From Modestobacter sp. VKM Ac-2977 (GTDB taxonomy: Bacteria > Actinomycetota > Actinomycetes > Mycobacteriales > Geodermatophilaceae), in assembly GCF_026968045.1 (NCBI RefSeq), contig NZ_JAPVBQ010000003.1:280060-344059 (forward strand): a stretch of DNA of 64,000 nucleotides. Direction: 5' to 3'. The notes beneath the pieces were generated by a model. The model was not told the origin of the DNA. It saw only the letters and a list, made by a program, of their open reading frames with translations, and made no database searches. This document shows, in pieces, positions 2,813 through 51,051 of the stretch. The first letter of the stretch is position 1, and every line of letters begins with the position of its first letter. Position numbers and translations under genes: made by a program.

Positions 2813-4543
2813 ATGACGGCAGTCCGCCCACTCGGCCCCGAACAGCGCGCCCAGGCCTGGGCCGACCTCGCGGCCGGTGACTTCGAGGTCCTGGTGATCG
2901 GCGGCGGGGTGACCGGCGCCGGTGTCGCGCTGGACGCGGCCACCCGCGGCCTCAAGACGGCGCTGGTCGAGGCCCGCGACTTCGCCAGCGGCACCTCCTC
3001 GCGCTCCTCCAAGCTGTTCCACGGCGGACTGCGCTACCTCGAGCAGTTCGACTTCGGGCTGGTGCGGGAGGCGCTGCACGAGCGCGACCTCTCGGTCAAC
3101 CGGATCGCCCCGCACCTGGTCAAGCCGGTGCCCTTCCTCTACCCGCTCACCCACCGCGGCTGGGAGCGGCCCTACGTCACCGCTGGGCTCGCGCTCTACG
3201 ACGGGCTGGCCCGGCTCGGCGCGCTGTCGGACCCGATGCCCGCGCAGAAGCACCTGACCCGCACCGGTGCCCGCCGGGTGTTCCCCGCCCTCAAGCCCGA
3301 CGCGTTCGTCGGTGCCGTCCGGTACTACGACGCCCAGGCCGACGACGCGCGGCACACCCTGACCGTGGCCCGCACCGCCGCCGCCTACGGGGCGACCGTG
3401 CTCAACTCCGCCGAGGTCGTCTCCTTCGAGCACGCCGGTGGCCGGGTGGTCGGGGCGAAGGTGCGCGACGTCGAGACCGGGAACGAGGTCGACGTCTGCA
3501 GCGAGGTGGTCGTCAACGCCACCGGGGTGTGGACCGACGACGTCCAGACCCTGGTCGGCGGCCGCGGCCGGTTCCACGTGCGCGCCAGCAAGGGCGTGCA
3601 CATCGTCGTCCCGCGCGACCGGATCAACGGCGAGGCCGGCCTGATCCTGCGCACGGAGAAGTCGGTGCTGTTCGTGATCCCGTGGGGCAGCCACTGGATC
3701 ATCGGGACGACCGACACCGACTGGGAGCTGGACAAGGCCCACCCGGCCGCCAGCAAGGCCGACATCGACTACATCCTCGAGCACGTCAACGAGGTGCTGT
3801 CGGTCCCGATCACACACGCCGACATCACCGGGGTCTACGCCGGGCTGCGCCCGCTGCTGTCCGGTGAGCAGGAGTCGACCAGCCAGCTCTCCCGGGAGCA
3901 CGCCGTGGCCCGGCCGATGCCCGGCGTCATCGCCGTCGCCGGCGGCAAGTACACGACCTACCGGCCGATGGCCGCCGACGCGGTGGACGCCGTGGCCGAG
4001 GACGTCACCCGCCGGGTCCCGCCGAGCGTCACCGAGAACATCCCGCTGGTCGGCGCCGAGGGCTACGCGGCGATGGTCAACTCCCTCGACGGGCTCTCCG
4101 ACCGGTGGGGCATCCCGCGCTTCCGCGCCGAGCACCTGCTCAACCGGTTCGGGTCGCTCACCCCCGAGGTGCTCGACCTGGCCGCCGACGCCCCCGAGCT
4201 GCTCGAGCCGGTGCCCGGCGCCGAGGAGTACCTGATGGTGGAGATGGTGTGGTCGGCCGCGCACGAGGCTGCGCTGCACCTGGACGACCTGCTGGCCCGG
4301 CGCACCCGGATCTCCATCGAGACCCCGCACCGTGGGGTCGACTCCGCCGCGCCGGTCGCCCGAGCCGTGGCCGGGGTGCTGGGCTGGGACGACGAGCGGA
4401 TCGCCAGCGAGGTGGACAGCTACACCGCCCGGGTGGAGGCCGAGCGGCGCTCGCAGGAGGCTGCCGACGACCAGGAGGCCGACGCCGCCCGGGTCGCCGC
4501 ACCGGACACCCGCGCCGTCGCCGTCGGCCGCGCCCTGGGCTGA
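2813..4543 (+). CDS. glpD: Aerobic glycerol-3-phosphate dehydrogenase
   Basis: This FAD enzyme oxidises sn-glycerol 3-phosphate to dihydroxyacetone phosphate at the membrane and passes electrons to quinone. The protein is 576 residues. It has an N-terminal Rossmann FAD motif (VLVIGGGVTGAGVALDAATRG), then FASGTSSRSSKLFHGGLRYLE, IIGTTDTDWE, and the conserved YAGLRPLL and GGKYTTYR segments before the C-terminal helical domain. The start is ATG 2813, because GAGGAG sits six bases upstream; an in-frame ATG at 2765 has no ribosome site. The C-terminal ~25 residues are acidic and alanine-rich and look unstructured. It is divergent from iclR-glpK-glpF and completes glycerol entry into glycolysis. Confidence 0.97.
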   Translation: MTAVRPLGPEQRAQAWADLAAGDFEVLVIGGGVTGAGVALDAATRGLKTALVEARDFASGTSSRSSKLFHGGLRYLEQFDFGLVREALHERDLSVNRIAPHLVKPVPFLYPLTHRGWERPYVTAGLALYDGLARLGALSDPMPAQKHLTRTGARRVFPALKPDAFVGAVRYYDAQADDARHTLTVARTAAAYGATVLNSAEVVSFEHAGGRVVGAKVRDVETGNEVDVCSEVVVNATGVWTDDVQTLVGGRGRFHVRASKGVHIVVPRDRINGEAGLILRTEKSVLFVIPWGSHWIIGTTDTDWELDKAHPAASKADIDYILEHVNEVLSVPITHADITGVYAGLRPLLSGEQESTSQLSREHAVARPMPGVIAVAGGKYTTYRPMAADAVDAVAEDVTRRVPPSVTENIPLVGAEGYAAMVNSLDGLSDRWGIPRFRAEHLLNRFGSLTPEVLDLAADAPELLEPVPGAEEYLMVEMVWSAAHEAALHLDDLLARRTRISIETPHRGVDSAAPVARAVAGVLGWDDERIASEVDSYTARVEAERRSQEAADDQEADAARVAAPDTRAVAVGRALG

Positions 4544-8654: not shown

Positions 8655-9179
8655 GTGAACCCAGGAGCGGACGTCCCCCCAGCAGTGGTCGACCCCTCGG
8701 TGATGCGGAACGTGCTCGGGCACTTCGTCTCCGGGGTGACCGTGGTGACGGCGATGGCCGCCGACGGCCCGGTGGGCTTCACCTGCCAGTCGTTCAGCTC
8801 ACTGTCCCTGGACCCGCCGCTGGTCGCCTTCGCCCCGGCCCGCACGTCCCGCACCTGGCCGCTGCTGCGGGAGGCGGGCCGGTTCTGCGTCAACGTCCTG
8901 GCCGACGAGCAGAGCGGGCTGTCCCGGCAGTTCGCCCGCTCCGGCGCCGACAAGTACGCCGGCGTGCAGTGGGCGCCCAGCCCGCACGGCTCTCCCGTGC
9001 TCGCCGACGTCGTCGCCTGGATCGACAGCGAGCTGTGGGCCGAGTACGACGGCGGCGACCACATGATCGTCGTGGCGCGGGTGCTCGACCTCGGCGCCGA
9101 CGCCTCCCGCACGCCGCTGCTGTTCCACCGCGGCGCCTACGGCCTCCAGCAGGCGCGGCTGGACCCCGAGGAGAGCTAG
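8655..9179 (+). CDS. Flavin reductase family protein
   Basis: The ~174-residue protein carries the FMN-binding split-barrel fold of the flavin reductase (HpaC/DIM6-NTAB) family: VMRNVLGHFVSGVTVVTA, GFTCQSFSSLSLDPPLVAF, and FCVNVLADEQSGLSRQFA. Such enzymes reduce FMN or FAD with NAD(P)H and hand it to a partner monooxygenase, or act directly as flavin oxidoreductases. The C-terminal segment LLFHRGAYGLQ is also typical. The start is probably GTG 8655, with a later in-frame GTG at 8685 possible. No monooxygenase partner is next to it, so its client is unknown. Confidence 0.85.
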   Translation: MNPGADVPPAVVDPSVMRNVLGHFVSGVTVVTAMAADGPVGFTCQSFSSLSLDPPLVAFAPARTSRTWPLLREAGRFCVNVLADEQSGLSRQFARSGADKYAGVQWAPSPHGSPVLADVVAWIDSELWAEYDGGDHMIVVARVLDLGADASRTPLLFHRGAYGLQQARLDPEES

Positions 9180-9220
9180 CTGTGTTGTGCCATGACGTTA
9201 CTGGCACGCGCTAGCCGCAT

Positions 9221-9505
9221 CTACCGTGCGGGATGGGGGTCCGGTGGTGGGAGTCCGGCGCGGTAGTGAATGTCCGCGAGAGCGTCTCGCGGGATGTCCC
9301 CGGGGGACACCCGCTGCAGATCCCGGGGAGCGAACACGTGGAGACCAGTGCCCACCTGTACAACCAACAGCCCGCCGTAGGGCAGAGTCTCCCTGACCAC
9401 GCCGAAGGGCGGCTTGCCGTCCGCCTGGTCATCGCCGTGCGCGAGTATTCGCACGTAGTGCCCCTGCTTCAGGGTGCCTTCCTCGCTCCCGCCTGGCTCG
9501 ACCAT
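9221..9505 (-). CDS. Small hypothetical protein
   Basis: The 94-residue frame encodes a soluble, mixed-charge protein. Its middle (HYVRILAHGDDQADGKPPFGVV then YGGLLVVQVGTGLHVFAPRDLQRV) could form a small beta-barrel, but I recognise no family. The region is less GC-rich than its surroundings. The start is ATG 9505. There is no ribosome site, but TAGCCT lies six bases upstream, consistent with a leaderless transcript. The opposite strand is also open across this stretch (9233-9586). I prefer the minus strand for its amino-acid composition and start context, with limited certainty. Confidence 0.5.
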   Translation of the reverse strand: MVEPGGSEEGTLKQGHYVRILAHGDDQADGKPPFGVVRETLPYGGLLVVQVGTGLHVFAPRDLQRVSPGDIPRDALADIHYRAGLPPPDPHPAR

Positions 9506-9582
9506 TCGCGCAGGCTAACGCTCGATCGGTACGCCACCTACTGGCGGCTCTGCGTCGTCGACAACGTCATGGAGCAGTACAG

Positions 9583-11901
9583 CTAGCCGAACCGCAGGGC
9601 GATGACCGCGACGTCGTCGCGGCGGTCCGGGTCGGTGCCGACGGCGTGCAGGCACAGCGCTGCCGGGTCGTCGTCGACCGGGGCGTCGCTGAGTCGCTGG
9701 ACCAGTGCAGCGATCCCCTGGTCCATGTCCTGGCCGGGCCGCTCGATCAGCCCGTCGGTGTAGGCCACCAGCGTCGCCCCGGGCGGGATCTCCACCGCGC
9801 GGGACTGCCGCCGATGCGTCACGTCGACACCGATCAGCATCCCGGTGATCCCGTCGAGCATCTCGACCGTGCCGTCGACGTGGCGGAGCAGCAGCGGCGG
9901 GTGCCCGGCGTTGGCCAGCAGCAGGCGCCAGGGCTCCCCGTCGGTGCGGGGCCGCTCGACCCGGCCGTAGATCATCGTCGCCATCGGGGCCACGTGCAGG
10001 CCCTGCACCAGCCGGTCGACCCGGCCGAGGATCTCCCCCGGGTCGCCGTCACCGGCGTCCCAGGCGCAGGCCCGCAGCAGGCCGCGCAGGTGGCCCATCG
10101 CCGCGGCTGCCGCGACGTCGTGCCCGACGACGTCCCCGACGGCCAGGCCGACGCTGCCGTCGGGCAGGTGGAGCAGGTCGTAGAAGTCGCCACCGACGTC
10201 GGCGGAGCTCGAAGCACTGAGGTAGTGGGCCGCAGCCGTGACGCCGGGGATCGCCGGCAGCTGCGGCAGCAGCGAGCGCTGCAGCGTCTCGGCGACGGAG
10301 TGCTCCTGCTGGTACAGGCGGACGTTGTCCATCGCCATGGCGGCCCGACGGGAGAGGTCACGGGCCAGGTCGACGTCGTCGGTCCCGAACCGCCGGTCCT
10401 GGGTCTCGGCGACCAGGGTGAGCGCCCCGAGCGTGCGGCGGCGGGCGACCAGCGGCACGGTGAGCTGCGAGGAGGTGCCCAGCTCGGCCATCACCGCACG
10501 CAGCGCCGGGTCGGGGGCTGCTGCGAGCAGGATCTCGTCGGTGATCTCCGGGACCAGGACCGGCTCGCTCGACCGGAGCACCCGCCGGATGGGTGCGGCG
10601 TCGGGCAGGTCGGCGATGCGCAACGCGGCGAAGCGGCGCAGCTCCTCGGTCATCCCCCGCCGGTGGGCGGCCGAGGTGCCGGAGACCGAGCCGTGCTCGT
10701 CCACCAGGGTGAGGAACACCCAGTCGGCCAGCAGCGGGACGCAGAGGGAGGCCAGCCGATCGAGCAGGTCGTCCATGTCCAGGGTCGCGCTGAGCGTGCT
10801 GGTGGCCTCGGCCATCAGCGCCAGCCGGCTCTGTGCCTGCTCGGCCTCGACCCGGGCGGCGTCGGCGGCGGCGTGGGCCTCCTCGGCGTCCCGCCGGGCG
10901 GCCTGCTCGGCGGCGAACGCGGCCTGGCGGTCGTCCTCGACCCGGACCCGCTCGGTGACGTCGGTCTGCACGCCCACGAAGCTGACCAGCGTGCCCTCGC
11001 CGTCGAACACCGGCGTGATCGAGACCTGGTTCCAGAAGGCCGTGCCGTCCTTGCGGTAGTTGAGCAGCGTGGTGGTGACCGGCTGCTCGTCGCCCAGCGC
11101 CTGGCGGAGGTCGTCGATCGCCTTCCGCTCGGTCGCCGGGCCCTGCAGGAAGCGGCAGTTGCGGCCGACGCTCTCCTCGTAGCTGTAACCGCTGATCCGG
11201 CTGAACGAGGGGTTGACCCACACCAGCGGGTCGTCCTCCTGCCGCGGGTCGGTGATGGTGAAGGCGATGTCGGTGGCGACGACCGCGCGTTCCCGCAGCG
11301 TCTGCAGCTGCGTCTCGGGGTCCCTGCTGTCGCCGGGCTCGTCGAGCTCGAGGAAGACCACCAGCGACAGCCGTTGCTCGCTGTCGTCCCGGGAGAGCGG
11401 GAAACCGCTGACCCACAGCACCTGGTCGGGGTCGTCTCCGGCGTCGGCGGCGCGCTGGGCGTTGGAGCTGTCCCGGGGGCTGAGCCGGACGGCCTCGCCG
11501 GCGACCAACCGCCCGGCGGCGACGTCGGACAACGGGCCGGTGCTCTTCGCCAGCGGTGCACCGGAGAGGTCGGTGAGCCCCGCGGAGGCGCCCCAGGTGT
11601 CGATGGCGACCGGCAGGCGCACGTTGCCGGCGAGTTCGATGGCTGCGGCGTTGGCGTAGGTGACGGCGCCGTCGGTCTGGTCGATGACCAGGACGGCGAC
11701 CGGGACGTCGGAGAGCACCCCGGGCAGCGCGGCCTGGGCGCTCCGCTGGCTGTCCGTCCCGGAGACCGCTGCCTCGGCGGCACCGACGACCGACGCCTGC
11801 TGGCGGGTCTGCTCGGGCTGGTCGGGGCTGCTCGGCAGGGCATCGGCCAGTGCAGCGGCGGCTTCGCGGGGGACCGGGACCGGTCGCCTGTCGGACGGCA
11901 C
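9583..11901 (-). CDS. PAS-LOV-GAF-PP2C (SpoIIE/RsbU-type) phosphatase, putative blue-light sensor
   Basis: This 772-residue multidomain protein has a PAS-like domain (~60-190) and a second PAS (~205-320) bearing the LOV photoreceptor signature: GRNCRFLQ at 246-253 with photo-cysteine C249, flavin-contact asparagines N281 and N291 (NYRKDG...WNQVS), and Q312 in FVGVQTD. A charged alanine-rich coiled coil follows (~318-365), then a GAF domain (~365-530), then a PP2C/SpoIIE phosphatase domain (~540-772) with the metal-binding DVGGDFYD and GDVVGHD motifs. By family it would dephosphorylate an anti-sigma antagonist (RsbV/SpoIIAA type) on blue-light activation, switching on a stress sigma factor. 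No anti-sigma or STAS gene is nearby. The gene is monocistronic. Confidence 0.9.
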   Translation of the reverse strand: MPSDRRPVPVPREAAAALADALPSSPDQPEQTRQQASVVGAAEAAVSGTDSQRSAQAALPGVLSDVPVAVLVIDQTDGAVTYANAAAIELAGNVRLPVAIDTWGASAGLTDLSGAPLAKSTGPLSDVAAGRLVAGEAVRLSPRDSSNAQRAADAGDDPDQVLWVSGFPLSRDDSEQRLSLVVFLELDEPGDSRDPETQLQTLRERAVVATDIAFTITDPRQEDDPLVWVNPSFSRISGYSYEESVGRNCRFLQGPATERKAIDDLRQALGDEQPVTTTLLNYRKDGTAFWNQVSITPVFDGEGTLVSFVGVQTDVTERVRVEDDRQAAFAAEQAARRDAEEAHAAADAARVEAEQAQSRLALMAEATSTLSATLDMDDLLDRLASLCVPLLADWVFLTLVDEHGSVSGTSAAHRRGMTEELRRFAALRIADLPDAAPIRRVLRSSEPVLVPEITDEILLAAAPDPALRAVMAELGTSSQLTVPLVARRRTLGALTLVAETQDRRFGTDDVDLARDLSRRAAMAMDNVRLYQQEHSVAETLQRSLLPQLPAIPGVTAAAHYLSASSSADVGGDFYDLLHLPDGSVGLAVGDVVGHDVAAAAAMGHLRGLLRACAWDAGDGDPGEILGRVDRLVQGLHVAPMATMIYGRVERPRTDGEPWRLLLANAGHPPLLLRHVDGTVEMLDGITGMLIGVDVTHRRQSRAVEIPPGATLVAYTDGLIERPGQDMDQGIAALVQRLSDAPVDDDPAALCLHAVGTDPDRRDDVAVIALRFG

Positions 11902-11976
11902 TGCGCGATGTTACGAGAGGAGCTTCGGTTGCGCACCACAGAGCGCCGCTGGGCGGGAGGACGTCCCCCGCACGGG

Positions 11977-12507
11977 TCACCCGGTGCGGTCGGGCCCGTC
12001 GTCCTGGGCCTGGGCCTGGGCCTGGGCCTGGGCTTGGGCTTGGGGCTGGGCGACCCGGGACTGGTGGCGCAGCCACAGCAGCCCGAGCACCGGGAGCAGC
12101 AGGGGCACGTACCCGTAGCCCTGCCCGTAGCCGGACCAGACGGTGGCGTCCGGGAACGCCGCCGGGTCCAGCAGCGACAGCGTGCCCACCACGAGGACGC
12201 CGGCCAGTTCGATCGAGCAGGAGACCACGGCGGTGCGCCGGCCGCCGCGGCCGCCGCGGGCCAGCCCGATCGTGGCGATCACGTAGACCACCGCGGCGAG
12301 GGCCGACAGCAGGTAGGCCAGCGGCGCCTCGTCGAACTGGGTCGACAGCTGCACCGCCGCCCGGGCGCCCGCGGCGAGCGCGAACACCCCGTAGAGCGCC
12401 ACCAGCACCCGCCCGGGGCCGCGGGTCGTCCCCGGGGCGGCGCTCGTCGCTTCCTGGGCCGGCCGGCCCAGCGCGCCGCCGCCGGTGGCCCGACCCTCGT
12501 CAGCCAC
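11977..12507 (-). CDS. Integral membrane protein with Gln-Ala repeat tail
   Basis: The 176-residue protein has a polar N-terminus (1-32), about four membrane helices (VLVALYGVFALAAGARAA, LAYLLSALAAVVYVIATIGLA, VSCSIELAGVLVVGTLSLL, GYVPLLLPVLGLLWLRHQ) and a C-terminal tail of about seven Gln-Ala pairs. The tail is encoded by a hexanucleotide minisatellite at 12003-12051. I know this architecture only as an uncharacterised actinobacterial membrane protein. The start (12507) overlaps the end of the upstream membrane-protein gene by eight bases, so the two are probably co-translated and may form a complex. Confidence 0.75.
   Translation of the reverse strand: MADEGRATGGGALGRPAQEATSAAPGTTRGPGRVLVALYGVFALAAGARAAVQLSTQFDEAPLAYLLSALAAVVYVIATIGLARGGRGGRRTAVVSCSIELAGVLVVGTLSLLDPAAFPDATVWSGYGQGYGYVPLLLPVLGLLWLRHQSRVAQPQAQAQAQAQAQAQDDGPDRTG
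12003..12051. repeat. Hexanucleotide minisatellite (CCTGGG)n
   Basis: About eight near-perfect tandem copies of CCTGGG (late copies drift to CTTGGG) encode the Gln-Ala tail of the membrane protein. Six-base units keep the frame, so copy-number change would only alter tail length. Confidence 0.85.
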
Positions 12508-12865
12508 CGGTGACCTCCCAGAGGTCCAGCAGCCGCCAGAGCATCACCGCGACGGCCAGCGCGGCGACCCCGAGCACCGTGCCTGCCCAGCGGGTGGGTT
12601 CCGAGCGGGCCCACAGCAGGCCGGCCACCGGCAACAGCACCACGCTGATCAGGTAGGCGAGGAAGGTCGGCAGGTCCTCGGGCCGGTCGCCGCCGGCGAG
12701 TGCGGACACCGCCACGCCGAGCTGCACCAGCAGCAGGAGCTCCAGCAGCACGGCCCCGGCCAGGTGGGCGGTGCCGATCCGGCGGCGCAGCACCGTGCTC
12801 AGCCCCCCGAGGGCGGCCAGCACGACGGCGACCACGGTCGCGGCGACGACGAGCGGTGTGCTCAC
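12500..12865 (-). CDS. Small four-helix membrane protein
   Basis: The 121-residue protein has about four predicted membrane segments (STPLVVAATVVAVVLAALGG, AHLAGAVLLELLLLVQLGVAV, TFLAYLISVVLLPVAGLLWA, WAGTVLGVAALAVAVMLWRLL) and almost no soluble domain. It overlaps the following membrane-protein gene by eight bases, implying translational coupling. No enzyme or transporter motif is visible. The pair looks like one of the uncharacterised conserved membrane-protein pairs of Actinobacteria; function unknown. Confidence 0.75.
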   Translation of the reverse strand: MSTPLVVAATVVAVVLAALGGLSTVLRRRIGTAHLAGAVLLELLLLVQLGVAVSALAGGDRPEDLPTFLAYLISVVLLPVAGLLWARSEPTRWAGTVLGVAALAVAVMLWRLLDLWEVTGG

Positions 12866-12919
12866 CGGCGGCAGTCGGTCAGGGTGGGTGGCACGTGCCC
12901 ATCCTGCCCGGCGGCCGGA

Positions 12920-13912
12920 TCAGCGGTGCACGGTGGACATGTCCGGGTACCGGTCGCCGGCCGTGGCCCCGGCCGGTGCGGCCTCGTCGAGCGCCTGCAG
13001 GTCGTCGTCGGTGAGGACGACGTCGGCGGCGGCCGCGTTCTCCTCCAGGTAGCGGACCCGCTTGGTGCCGGGGATCGGCACGACCGCCGGGGCGCCGTCC
13101 CGGCCGGACCGGGCCATCACCCAGGCGAGGGCGAGCTGGGTGGCGGTGACGCCCTTGGCCGCGGCGAGCTCGCGGACCCGGTCGACGAGCTCCAGGTTCC
13201 GGGCGAACGCCTCGCCCTGGAAGCGGGGGTTGCGCCGGCGGAAGTCGTCGGGCTCGAGGTCGTCGACGCTGCGGATCTGCCCGGAGAGGAAGCCGCGGCC
13301 GATCGGCGAGTAGGCGACGAAGCCGATGCCCAGGTCCGCGCAGGTGGCCAGTACGCCGTCCTCCTCCGGGTCACGGGTCCACAGCGAGTACTCGGTCTGC
13401 AACGCCGTGATCGGGAGGACGGCGTGCGCCCGGCGGATGGTGTCGGGCGCGGCCTCGGAGATGCCGGCGTACCGGATCTTCCCCGCCTCCACCAGCTCGG
13501 CGAGCGCGCCCCAGGTCTCCTCGATCGGCACGGTCGTGTCGACCCGGTGCTGGTAGTAGAGGTCGATGACGTCGACGCCCAGCCGCTGCAGGGAGGCGTC
13601 GCAGGCCCGGTGCACGTACTCGGCGTGGCCGTTGATCCGGATGAAGGAACCGTCCTCGGCGCGCTCGTTGCCGAACTTGGTGGCCAGCACCACTTCGTCG
13701 CGGCGGCCGGCGATGGCCTGGCCGACGAGCCGTTCGTTCGTGAAGGGGCCGTACATGTCGGCCGTGTCGAGGAAGGTGACGCCGAGGTCGAGGGCCCGCC
13801 GGACGGTGCGCTCGGCCTCGGCCTGGTCGCCGGTGCCGTAGAACTCGCTCATCCCCATGCAGCCCAGGCCCTGGGCGGAGACGGTGAGGTCGCGGAGCAT
13901 GCGTGTCTGCAT
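12920..13912 (-). CDS. Aldo/keto reductase
   Basis: This 330-residue NADPH-dependent TIM-barrel oxidoreductase resembles the AKR13-type family. The catalytic tetrad is visible: Asp and Tyr in FLDTADMYG, Lys in LATKFG, and His in YYQHRVD. The NADP-phosphate region near the C-terminus reads [17 protein letters not shown]. The start is ATG 13912 (MQTRMLRDL), with GGCAGGAGGGGG directly upstream; an in-frame start 60 bases earlier lacks a ribosome site. The natural substrate is likely an aldehyde or ketone but cannot be named. It is divergent from the iron-uptake operon. Confidence 0.93.
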
Positions 13913-50199: not shown

Positions 50200-51051
50200 G
50201 TGCTCGTGCTCGACAGCGCTGCCGTCTCCACCCGTGGCCCCCGCCCGGACAACCAGGACTCCGCGGTCGCCGGCCCCCAGCTGATCGCCATCGCCGACGG
50301 GGTGGGCGGCAACGTCGGTGGAGCGGTCGCCTCCTCGCTGGTGGTGAACTGGCTGGCCCCGCTGGCCACCGGCAGCACCGGTGAGGGCGCCGACGACCCG
50401 GTGCGGATCGTGGCGAGCGCGAACGAGCGGATCCGGGCGGCCTACACCGAGCGTCCCCGGCTGCGGACGATGGCGACCACGATGACCGCGCTGCACATCG
50501 ACGCCCAGGGGTTGGCGCTGCTGCACATCGGCGACTCCCGCGGCTACCTGCTGCAGGACGGCGAGCTCCAGCAGGTCAGCACCGACCACACGTTGGTCCA
50601 GGCGCTGATCGACGCCGGCTCCCTCACCCCGGCCGAGGCGAAGGTGCACCCGCAGCGCTCGGCGGTCTACGCCGCACTGCACGGCGCGGACGACGACGTC
50701 GCCGCGGTCGACGTGCTCCGGCTGGACGCGCGCCCCGGTGACCGGGTGATGGTCTGCTCCGACGGGCTGTCCGACGTCGTCCCGGCGGCCGTGCTGTGCG
50801 ACCTGCTGGCCGCCGACGGCACGCCCGCCCAGGCCGCCGCGCGGCTGCGGGACGCCGCGCTGGCCGGGCCGCCCACCGACAACATCACCGTCGTCGTCGC
50901 CGACGTCCTGGAGGCCGGGGCCGATGGCGGCCCGGTCCGGGTGTGCACGTTCGGCGCCGCCACCGAGCTCCGTGAGGAGACCGCCGAGGCGCTGGAGGCC
51001 GTCTGGCCCGGCCCGGTGCCGGTCGGCCTGGTCCAGCACCGCCCCCGCTGA
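50200..51051 (+). CDS. PP2C-type serine/threonine phosphatase
   Basis: The 283-residue PPM/PP2C phosphatase has metal-binding motifs RGPRPDNQD, IAIADGVGGN, LLHIGDSRGYLL, VMVCSDGLSDVV and a C-terminal DNITVVVADVL. It lacks a membrane anchor and FHA domain. It probably removes phosphate from serine/threonine-kinase substrates. The start is GTG 50200, with AGGGGG about nine bases upstream. It is divergent from yaaA and ends just before the spl remnant on the other strand. Confidence 0.93.
   Translation: MLVLDSAAVSTRGPRPDNQDSAVAGPQLIAIADGVGGNVGGAVASSLVVNWLAPLATGSTGEGADDPVRIVASANERIRAAYTERPRLRTMATTMTALHIDAQGLALLHIGDSRGYLLQDGELQQVSTDHTLVQALIDAGSLTPAEAKVHPQRSAVYAALHGADDDVAAVDVLRLDARPGDRVMVCSDGLSDVVPAAVLCDLLAADGTPAQAAARLRDAALAGPPTDNITVVVADVLEAGADGGPVRVCTFGAATELREETAEALEAVWPGPVPVGLVQHRPR

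Follow-up and report, generated by a model that had tools for sequence, protein, structure and literature searches.

The minus-strand gene at 9583..11901 of the window, the 64,000-nucleotide stretch of DNA analysed here, encodes a 772-residue protein in which an N-terminal PAS domain (PAS1), a LOV domain, a helical coil, a GAF domain and a PP2C/SpoIIE phosphatase domain follow one another, and in which the length of the coil varies among homologues almost exclusively in steps of seven residues. We consider it likely that this protein is a soluble, presumably dimeric PP2C phosphatase driven by its LOV domain, with the coil as transmission shaft and a putative RsbV-like STAS protein as substrate; flavin binding, dimerization, light control, its direction and the substrate are predicted features of this reading. 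It is the best explanation in view of the LOV residues and fold, the PP2C fold and motifs, the two connecting helices, the heptad rule, the phase kept by paralogues, and the precedents of RsbU and YF1.

All elements described here lie on the minus strand, in one open reading frame that starts with GTG. PAS1 (residues ~61-187; 11341..11721) is marked by a weaker Pfam PAS_8 match (64-98) and by a predicted model that has a PAS-like order of strands and helices, with pLDDT mostly 75-92. The LOV domain (residues 204-317; 10951..11292; Pfam PAS_9 at 222-317, E = 5e-23) is followed by a single predicted helix, residues 316-371 (10789..10956), which forms the coil leading to the GAF domain (residues 375-523; 10333..10779; Pfam, E = 6e-12). 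A second helix of nearly constant length among aligned homologues (residues 507-543; 10273..10383) runs from GAF into the phosphatase domain, which spans residues 552-772 by fold (9586..10248) and 580-771 by the Pfam SpoIIE match (E = 1e-37, 130 bits). The AlphaFold2 model containing these six elements was built from 64 sequences (mean pLDDT 84.6) and superseded one from a shallower alignment (mean pLDDT 73, poor LOV); it is a model of the monomer, and its comparison as a whole with known folds bears mostly on LOV and PP2C and hardly on PAS1 and GAF. The order LOV, helical coil, GAF, PP2C proposed in the first-pass annotation is thus borne out jointly by Pfam domains, predicted helix 316-371 and fold matches, and its assignment of the host to the actinobacteria also stands, the DNA being Modestobacter-like. 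A scan of 9100-13000 for sigma-70-type promoters found none, and actinobacterial promoters need not fit such a pattern. The open reading frame at 9233-9586 on the plus strand was set aside as probably not a gene, having no Pfam match and no match in 20 neighbourhoods.

The second PAS domain is a LOV domain, as had been claimed from the letters alone. A motif pattern search located GRNCRFLQ at residues 246-253 (11143..11166), with the codon of C249 at 11155-11157. All the named positions were verified, and the photo-cysteine C249 and the flavin contacts N281, N291 and Q312, as assigned in the first-pass annotation, are conserved: among 120 homologues, C249 is cysteine in all 118 rows that carry a residue there, and N281, N291 and Q312 are kept in 119, 117 and 118 rows, respectively. 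The two rows without C249 are a contig fragment that begins past it (L130) and a protein without the LOV motif (L207). The fold is that of a LOV-type PAS domain and accompanies the GxNCRFLQ motif with its adduct cysteine and the conserved flavin contacts; the predicted domain superimposes at 0.6 Å on 4nxb over 104 residues and on 9vf8 over 105. A sequence search of the PDB returned LOV domains as top matches (best E = 7.5e-31), and the best NCBIfam models over this stretch were of the YtvA-family and blue-light histidine-kinase types, all scoring below their whole-protein cut-offs. A degenerate LOV-motif pattern hit four sites in the 4.3 Mb genome, one of them in this gene, and none when run backward as a control. 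The LOV assignment is far beyond chance and the reading is secure.

A LOV domain may bind flavin and yet hardly respond to light in function, serving instead as a dimer scaffold or a redox/flavin sensor while PAS1 and GAF act as the working inputs. Both of these domains are indeed present and conserved, and invariant columns across 30 family loci amount to 35% in PAS1 and 25% in GAF, with 50% in LOV. However, a scaffold would not need the adduct cysteine, which is retained in all 118 rows covering its column, with the flavin contacts at 117-119 of 120, distant families included. We therefore regard a LOV domain largely indifferent to light as improbable.

In the phosphatase domain, the acidic PP2C motifs are intact (GGDFYD, GDVVGHD, YTDGL and D762 D763), and certain of their acidic residues presumably bind metal. 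The predicted fold is nearest to Rv1364c of Mycobacterium tuberculosis (3ke6; Z = 29.2, 2.0 Å over 218 residues, 31% identity), the closest solved PP2C domain. The first-pass annotation had spoken of an RsbU-type phosphatase; the RsbU/SpoIIE-like PP2C domain is there, but a strict RsbU it is not, because no RsbU_N (PF08673) turned up when the protein was scanned with Pfam or when the genome was searched, with a positive Bacillus subtilis control. As in B. subtilis RsbU, a helical linker leads to PP2C. The protein keeps the order PAS, coil, PP2C if LOV is taken as the PAS and GAF as an insertion, and the layout is closer to RsbP or Rv1364c than to strict RsbU. Compared with B. subtilis RsbP (PMC12143880, PMC3183031), which shares that order, LOV replaces a plain PAS, and PAS1 and GAF are added. 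Rv1364c is described as carrying RsbW-like and STAS parts of its own (PMC12143880), whereas the 772-residue protein stops at PP2C. The suggestion that a GAF between LOV and output is unusual did not hold up, as nine of 17 scanned SpoIIE proteins of this genome have the layout PAS, GAF, PP2C (an 18th match, locus L018, was left out of the count). Elsewhere in the window, a 285-residue frame at 50281-50907 on the plus strand gives a weak SpoIIE/PP2C match (25 bits).

LOV-SpoIIE proteins as a kind are already in print: a survey of bacterial LOV proteins names SpoIIE phosphatases among their typical outputs and includes LOV-SpoIIE (LOV-PP2C) proteins with the same sensor and output (PMC4844311). 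The present protein differs from these in having PAS1 before and GAF after LOV, and the accessible sections of that survey contain neither such a layout nor a linker analysis.

The central observation concerns the coil, whose length was measured from D314, the aspartate of the D-V-T that ends LOV, to L362 just before GAF. Proteins were collected from 135 loci, and 15 that duplicated another throughout their last 400 residues were removed, leaving 120. Ten lengths occur among these homologues (13, 20, 27, 34, 37, 41, 48, 55, 62 and 69), and 118 of the 120 leave a remainder of 6 modulo 7; L207, with length 13, and the fragment L130 are counted within the 118. The two exceptions, L100 and L267, both have length 37. 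Lengths were measured with alignment anchors, as a text-pattern version had missed nine of 120 known lengths; a cruder text-anchor count, with 34 of 69 rows measurable (duplicates included), also placed all in one class modulo 7. None of the other moduli tried for the coil (2-6, 8-11 and 14) approaches the modulo-7 effect. L100 and L267 are natural cases in which to look for changed or inverted signalling, or for gene decay; according to the search, the L100 match contains one stop codon.

Since the homologues are related, the independence of these observations is measured by counting changes on a tree and not by the figure of 118. On a tree from which the coil columns were excluded (a quick method with one substitution model), the coil changed length at least 26 times and phase twice. 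The corresponding counts of length changes and of changes modulo 7 in six other variable segments were 36 and 32, 42 and 38, 25 and 23, 23 and 20, 14 and 14, and 19 and 19. Two heptad positions, spaced 3 and 4 apart, are alanine in 82% and 56% of cases, like an Ala-rich coiled coil. The connection from GAF to PP2C, on the other hand, is nearly constant in the 120 homologues, with 56-59 residues from 483 to 541 and 29 or 30 from 541 to 570. Judged from these sequences, the heptad-step lengths support a single coiled coil, uninterrupted and locked in register, as the putative transmission shaft.

Steps of seven residues might also reflect a mutational habit, in which repetitive DNA duplicates or drops 21-base units, and not selection of register. 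Unit duplication does occur, as seen in the longest coil (L099), where a 21-base unit is repeated in tandem 4.7 times with 76% matches. Across 116 coils, amino-acid identity is raised at lag 7 (0.30) and lag 14 (0.29) relative to other lags (0.10-0.20), but neither codon choice nor third bases show a seven-residue period, a test past which ancient duplications could nevertheless have decayed. In addition, the coil of the gene at 9583-11901 has no 21-base array, and short paralogue coils without such repeats keep the same phase. We accordingly give little credence to a purely mutational origin and read the rule as reflecting selection for register, with duplication probably supplying the heptads.

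The same phase is kept in paralogues with other sensors. Among 55 other GAF-PP2C homologues, 45 have a measurable anchor at the end of a PAS domain (D/E/N-x-T/S), and all 45 leave remainder 6, with lengths of 13 to 48; many are close relatives, 34 of the 45 having length 20. The remaining ten were unmeasurable (GAF in the place of PAS in five, Pro-rich linkers in four, a gap in one), and one measured row (L177) took an upstream anchor, giving 41 instead of 20 with an unchanged remainder. Only one of the 55 has a LOV-like motif anywhere, and in a control alignment no row has cysteine at column 249. As paralogues with a non-LOV PAS obey the same phase, the coil rule alone does not prove that light is the signal, a point in favour of the above reading in which LOV is a scaffold. 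We lean slightly towards a general design for actinobacterial sensor-GAF-PP2C proteins, in which a PAS-type sensor, LOV or not, would be joined through a coil with a free number of heptads and a fixed phase; sensors may have been swapped and shafts resized by whole heptads, so that light and other signals would pass through one register.

Several published systems provide a context for this rule. RsbU is activated through linker helices, a mode that has been proposed to extend to PP2C proteins in general; according to this proposal, which builds on AlphaFold models and on RsbU of B. subtilis, linker helices, when ordered, bring the phosphatase domains together as a pair (PMC12143880). In the LOV kinase YF1, the polarity of the light response is set by linker length modulo 7, and the same paper describes heptad periodicities in a number of LOV and phytochrome families (PMC6798134). 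LadC linkers fall into two clusters 14 residues apart (PMC10396304). YF1 and LadC resemble the present family in having LOV, a D-(I/V)-(T/S) start and a coil with these length relations, but their outputs are a histidine kinase and a diguanylate cyclase, respectively, in place of GAF-PP2C with ten natural lengths. The signaling helix (S-helix), which lies between sensory domains or between a sensor and outputs that include PP2C, likewise allows different heptad numbers (PMC1592074); where the S-helix has its central ERT signature, the coil of the 9583-11901 gene has EQA (AEQAAR) and some homologues have ERT (AERTAR). Natural phytochrome-kinase linkers occupy several registers (PMC11164954), and the single register of the LOV-GAF coil is tighter by that comparison. 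A literature search, with most subscription journals lying outside its coverage, brought up nothing on LOV-GAF-PP2C proteins or on the lengths of their linkers; within the literature covered, the LOV-to-GAF length rule was not found in print.

We suggest how a LOV-driven phosphatase of this kind would work. Blue light would produce a cysteinyl-flavin adduct at C249, and the resulting change in the LOV core would be passed to the helix emerging from the domain after D314-V-T. This helix would continue as a coiled coil, parallel and rich in alanine, up to GAF, whose last helix would pass the signal to the PP2C domains, with their pairing setting activity; PAS1 and GAF may provide further inputs. 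The likely substrate would be a phosphorylated STAS anti-anti-sigma protein of the RsbV type. As to direction, we lean weakly, and as a guess, towards light switching the phosphatase on. Several points weigh against the mechanism: the GAF between LOV and output could act alone, L100 and L267 break the phase, no STAS or anti-sigma gene is adjacent, and the gene is dispensable.

The phosphatase might be light-controlled and nevertheless act on a target other than a general-stress RsbV; this could be another STAS protein or a non-STAS protein with a role in, say, development or cell-cell signalling. Domain searches of the genome give 18 SpoIIE, nine STAS and 23 HATPase_c_2 matches (13 of the latter over the cut-off), which leaves the pairing open, and in the neighbourhood examined no STAS or anti-sigma gene adjoins 9583-11901. 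However, the closest solved phosphatase domain by both sequence and fold is that of Rv1364c, a regulator of SigF, and candidate partners exist in the genome on a contig other than that of the phosphatase gene: an RsbV-like STAS gene lies at 500422-500703 of contig C9, and an RsbW-like gene 1.4 kb further along overlaps a SigB/F/G sigma factor gene (296 bits). A different target therefore seems to us possible but rather unlikely. The genome thus offers a route to a stress-type sigma factor, to which the gene at 9583-11901 may be linked.

The gene is widespread in its family. A search matched 103 of 112 family genomes at E ≤ 1e-60, and an orthologue reaching into the LOV part was found in about 72 of the 112, counting one with a partial frame (G097) and one matched in two pieces of one frame (G062). 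The other 31 matching genomes comprise one with paralogues only (G082) and 30 with weaker matches (best E = 1e-67 to 1e-84), whose coverage, among the matches listed, is of GAF-PP2C. Of 394 genomes sampled across the class, 18, including its own, matched at E ≤ 1e-90, extending to five further families; distant relatives with matches include Kineococcus, Pseudonocardia, Nocardioides and a Rubrobacteraceae MAG. G102 and G100 belong to the same genus as the host genome, and the remaining close relatives that have names are Geodermatophilaceae.

Upstream of the phosphatase gene lie two small minus-strand genes without Pfam match, at 11977-12507 and 12500-12865, which overlap each other. Both adjoin the phosphatase gene in 20 of 20 orthologue loci fetched, and a convergent flavin reductase gene does so in 17; in two of the three loci without the reductase (L063 and L078) the gene lies near a contig end. 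We considered these neighbours as operon partners, and the reductase as a supplier of flavin to LOV, and dropped the idea, as they also stand together in all 11 genomes examined out of the approximately 40 in the family without an orthologue; the neighbours mark the locus and are no evidence of shared function. Ten of these 11 loci have no trace of the phosphatase gene. In the other, that of a close relative (G104; L288, G104:C49, ~3318-3986), residues 54-110 and 581-771 remain, the latter spread over three frames, with LOV-GAF gone; barring an error in the draft assembly, this is a decayed copy. The retained neighbours and this remnant suggest that the gene is probably ancestral at the locus and dispensable, and its absence from about 40 of 112 family genomes likewise argues for dispensability.

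The heptad rule bears on the open question of how bacterial PP2C phosphatases are switched by their sensors: it provides independent evolutionary evidence for a selected, register-sensitive coil across a large group of sensor-linked PP2C phosphatases. As a LOV-driven member would be switchable with light, the idea of coupling through the linker becomes directly testable, and a LOV-PP2C protein could become a tool as a light-controlled Ser/Thr phosphatase.

Other candidate photoreceptors are encoded in the same genome. A second photoreceptor phosphatase (L110:15429-17813, minus strand; SpoIIE match at G000:C1, 881949-882533) combines PAS_2-GAF-PHY, a phytochrome, with SpoIIE, so that PP2C outputs may receive red as well as blue light signals. 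The genome's three other LOV motifs (L118, L119 and L120, at G000:C9:529931, C10:177392 and C1:1550566) lie in EAL-DICT-LOV proteins, which are probable blue-light c-di-GMP enzymes. Together, the phytochrome-PP2C, the LOV-PP2C and the three LOV-EAL proteins would give red and blue inputs to two signalling networks. Two of the EAL-DICT-LOV proteins carry GGDEF after LOV; the third has none in the open reading frame scanned.
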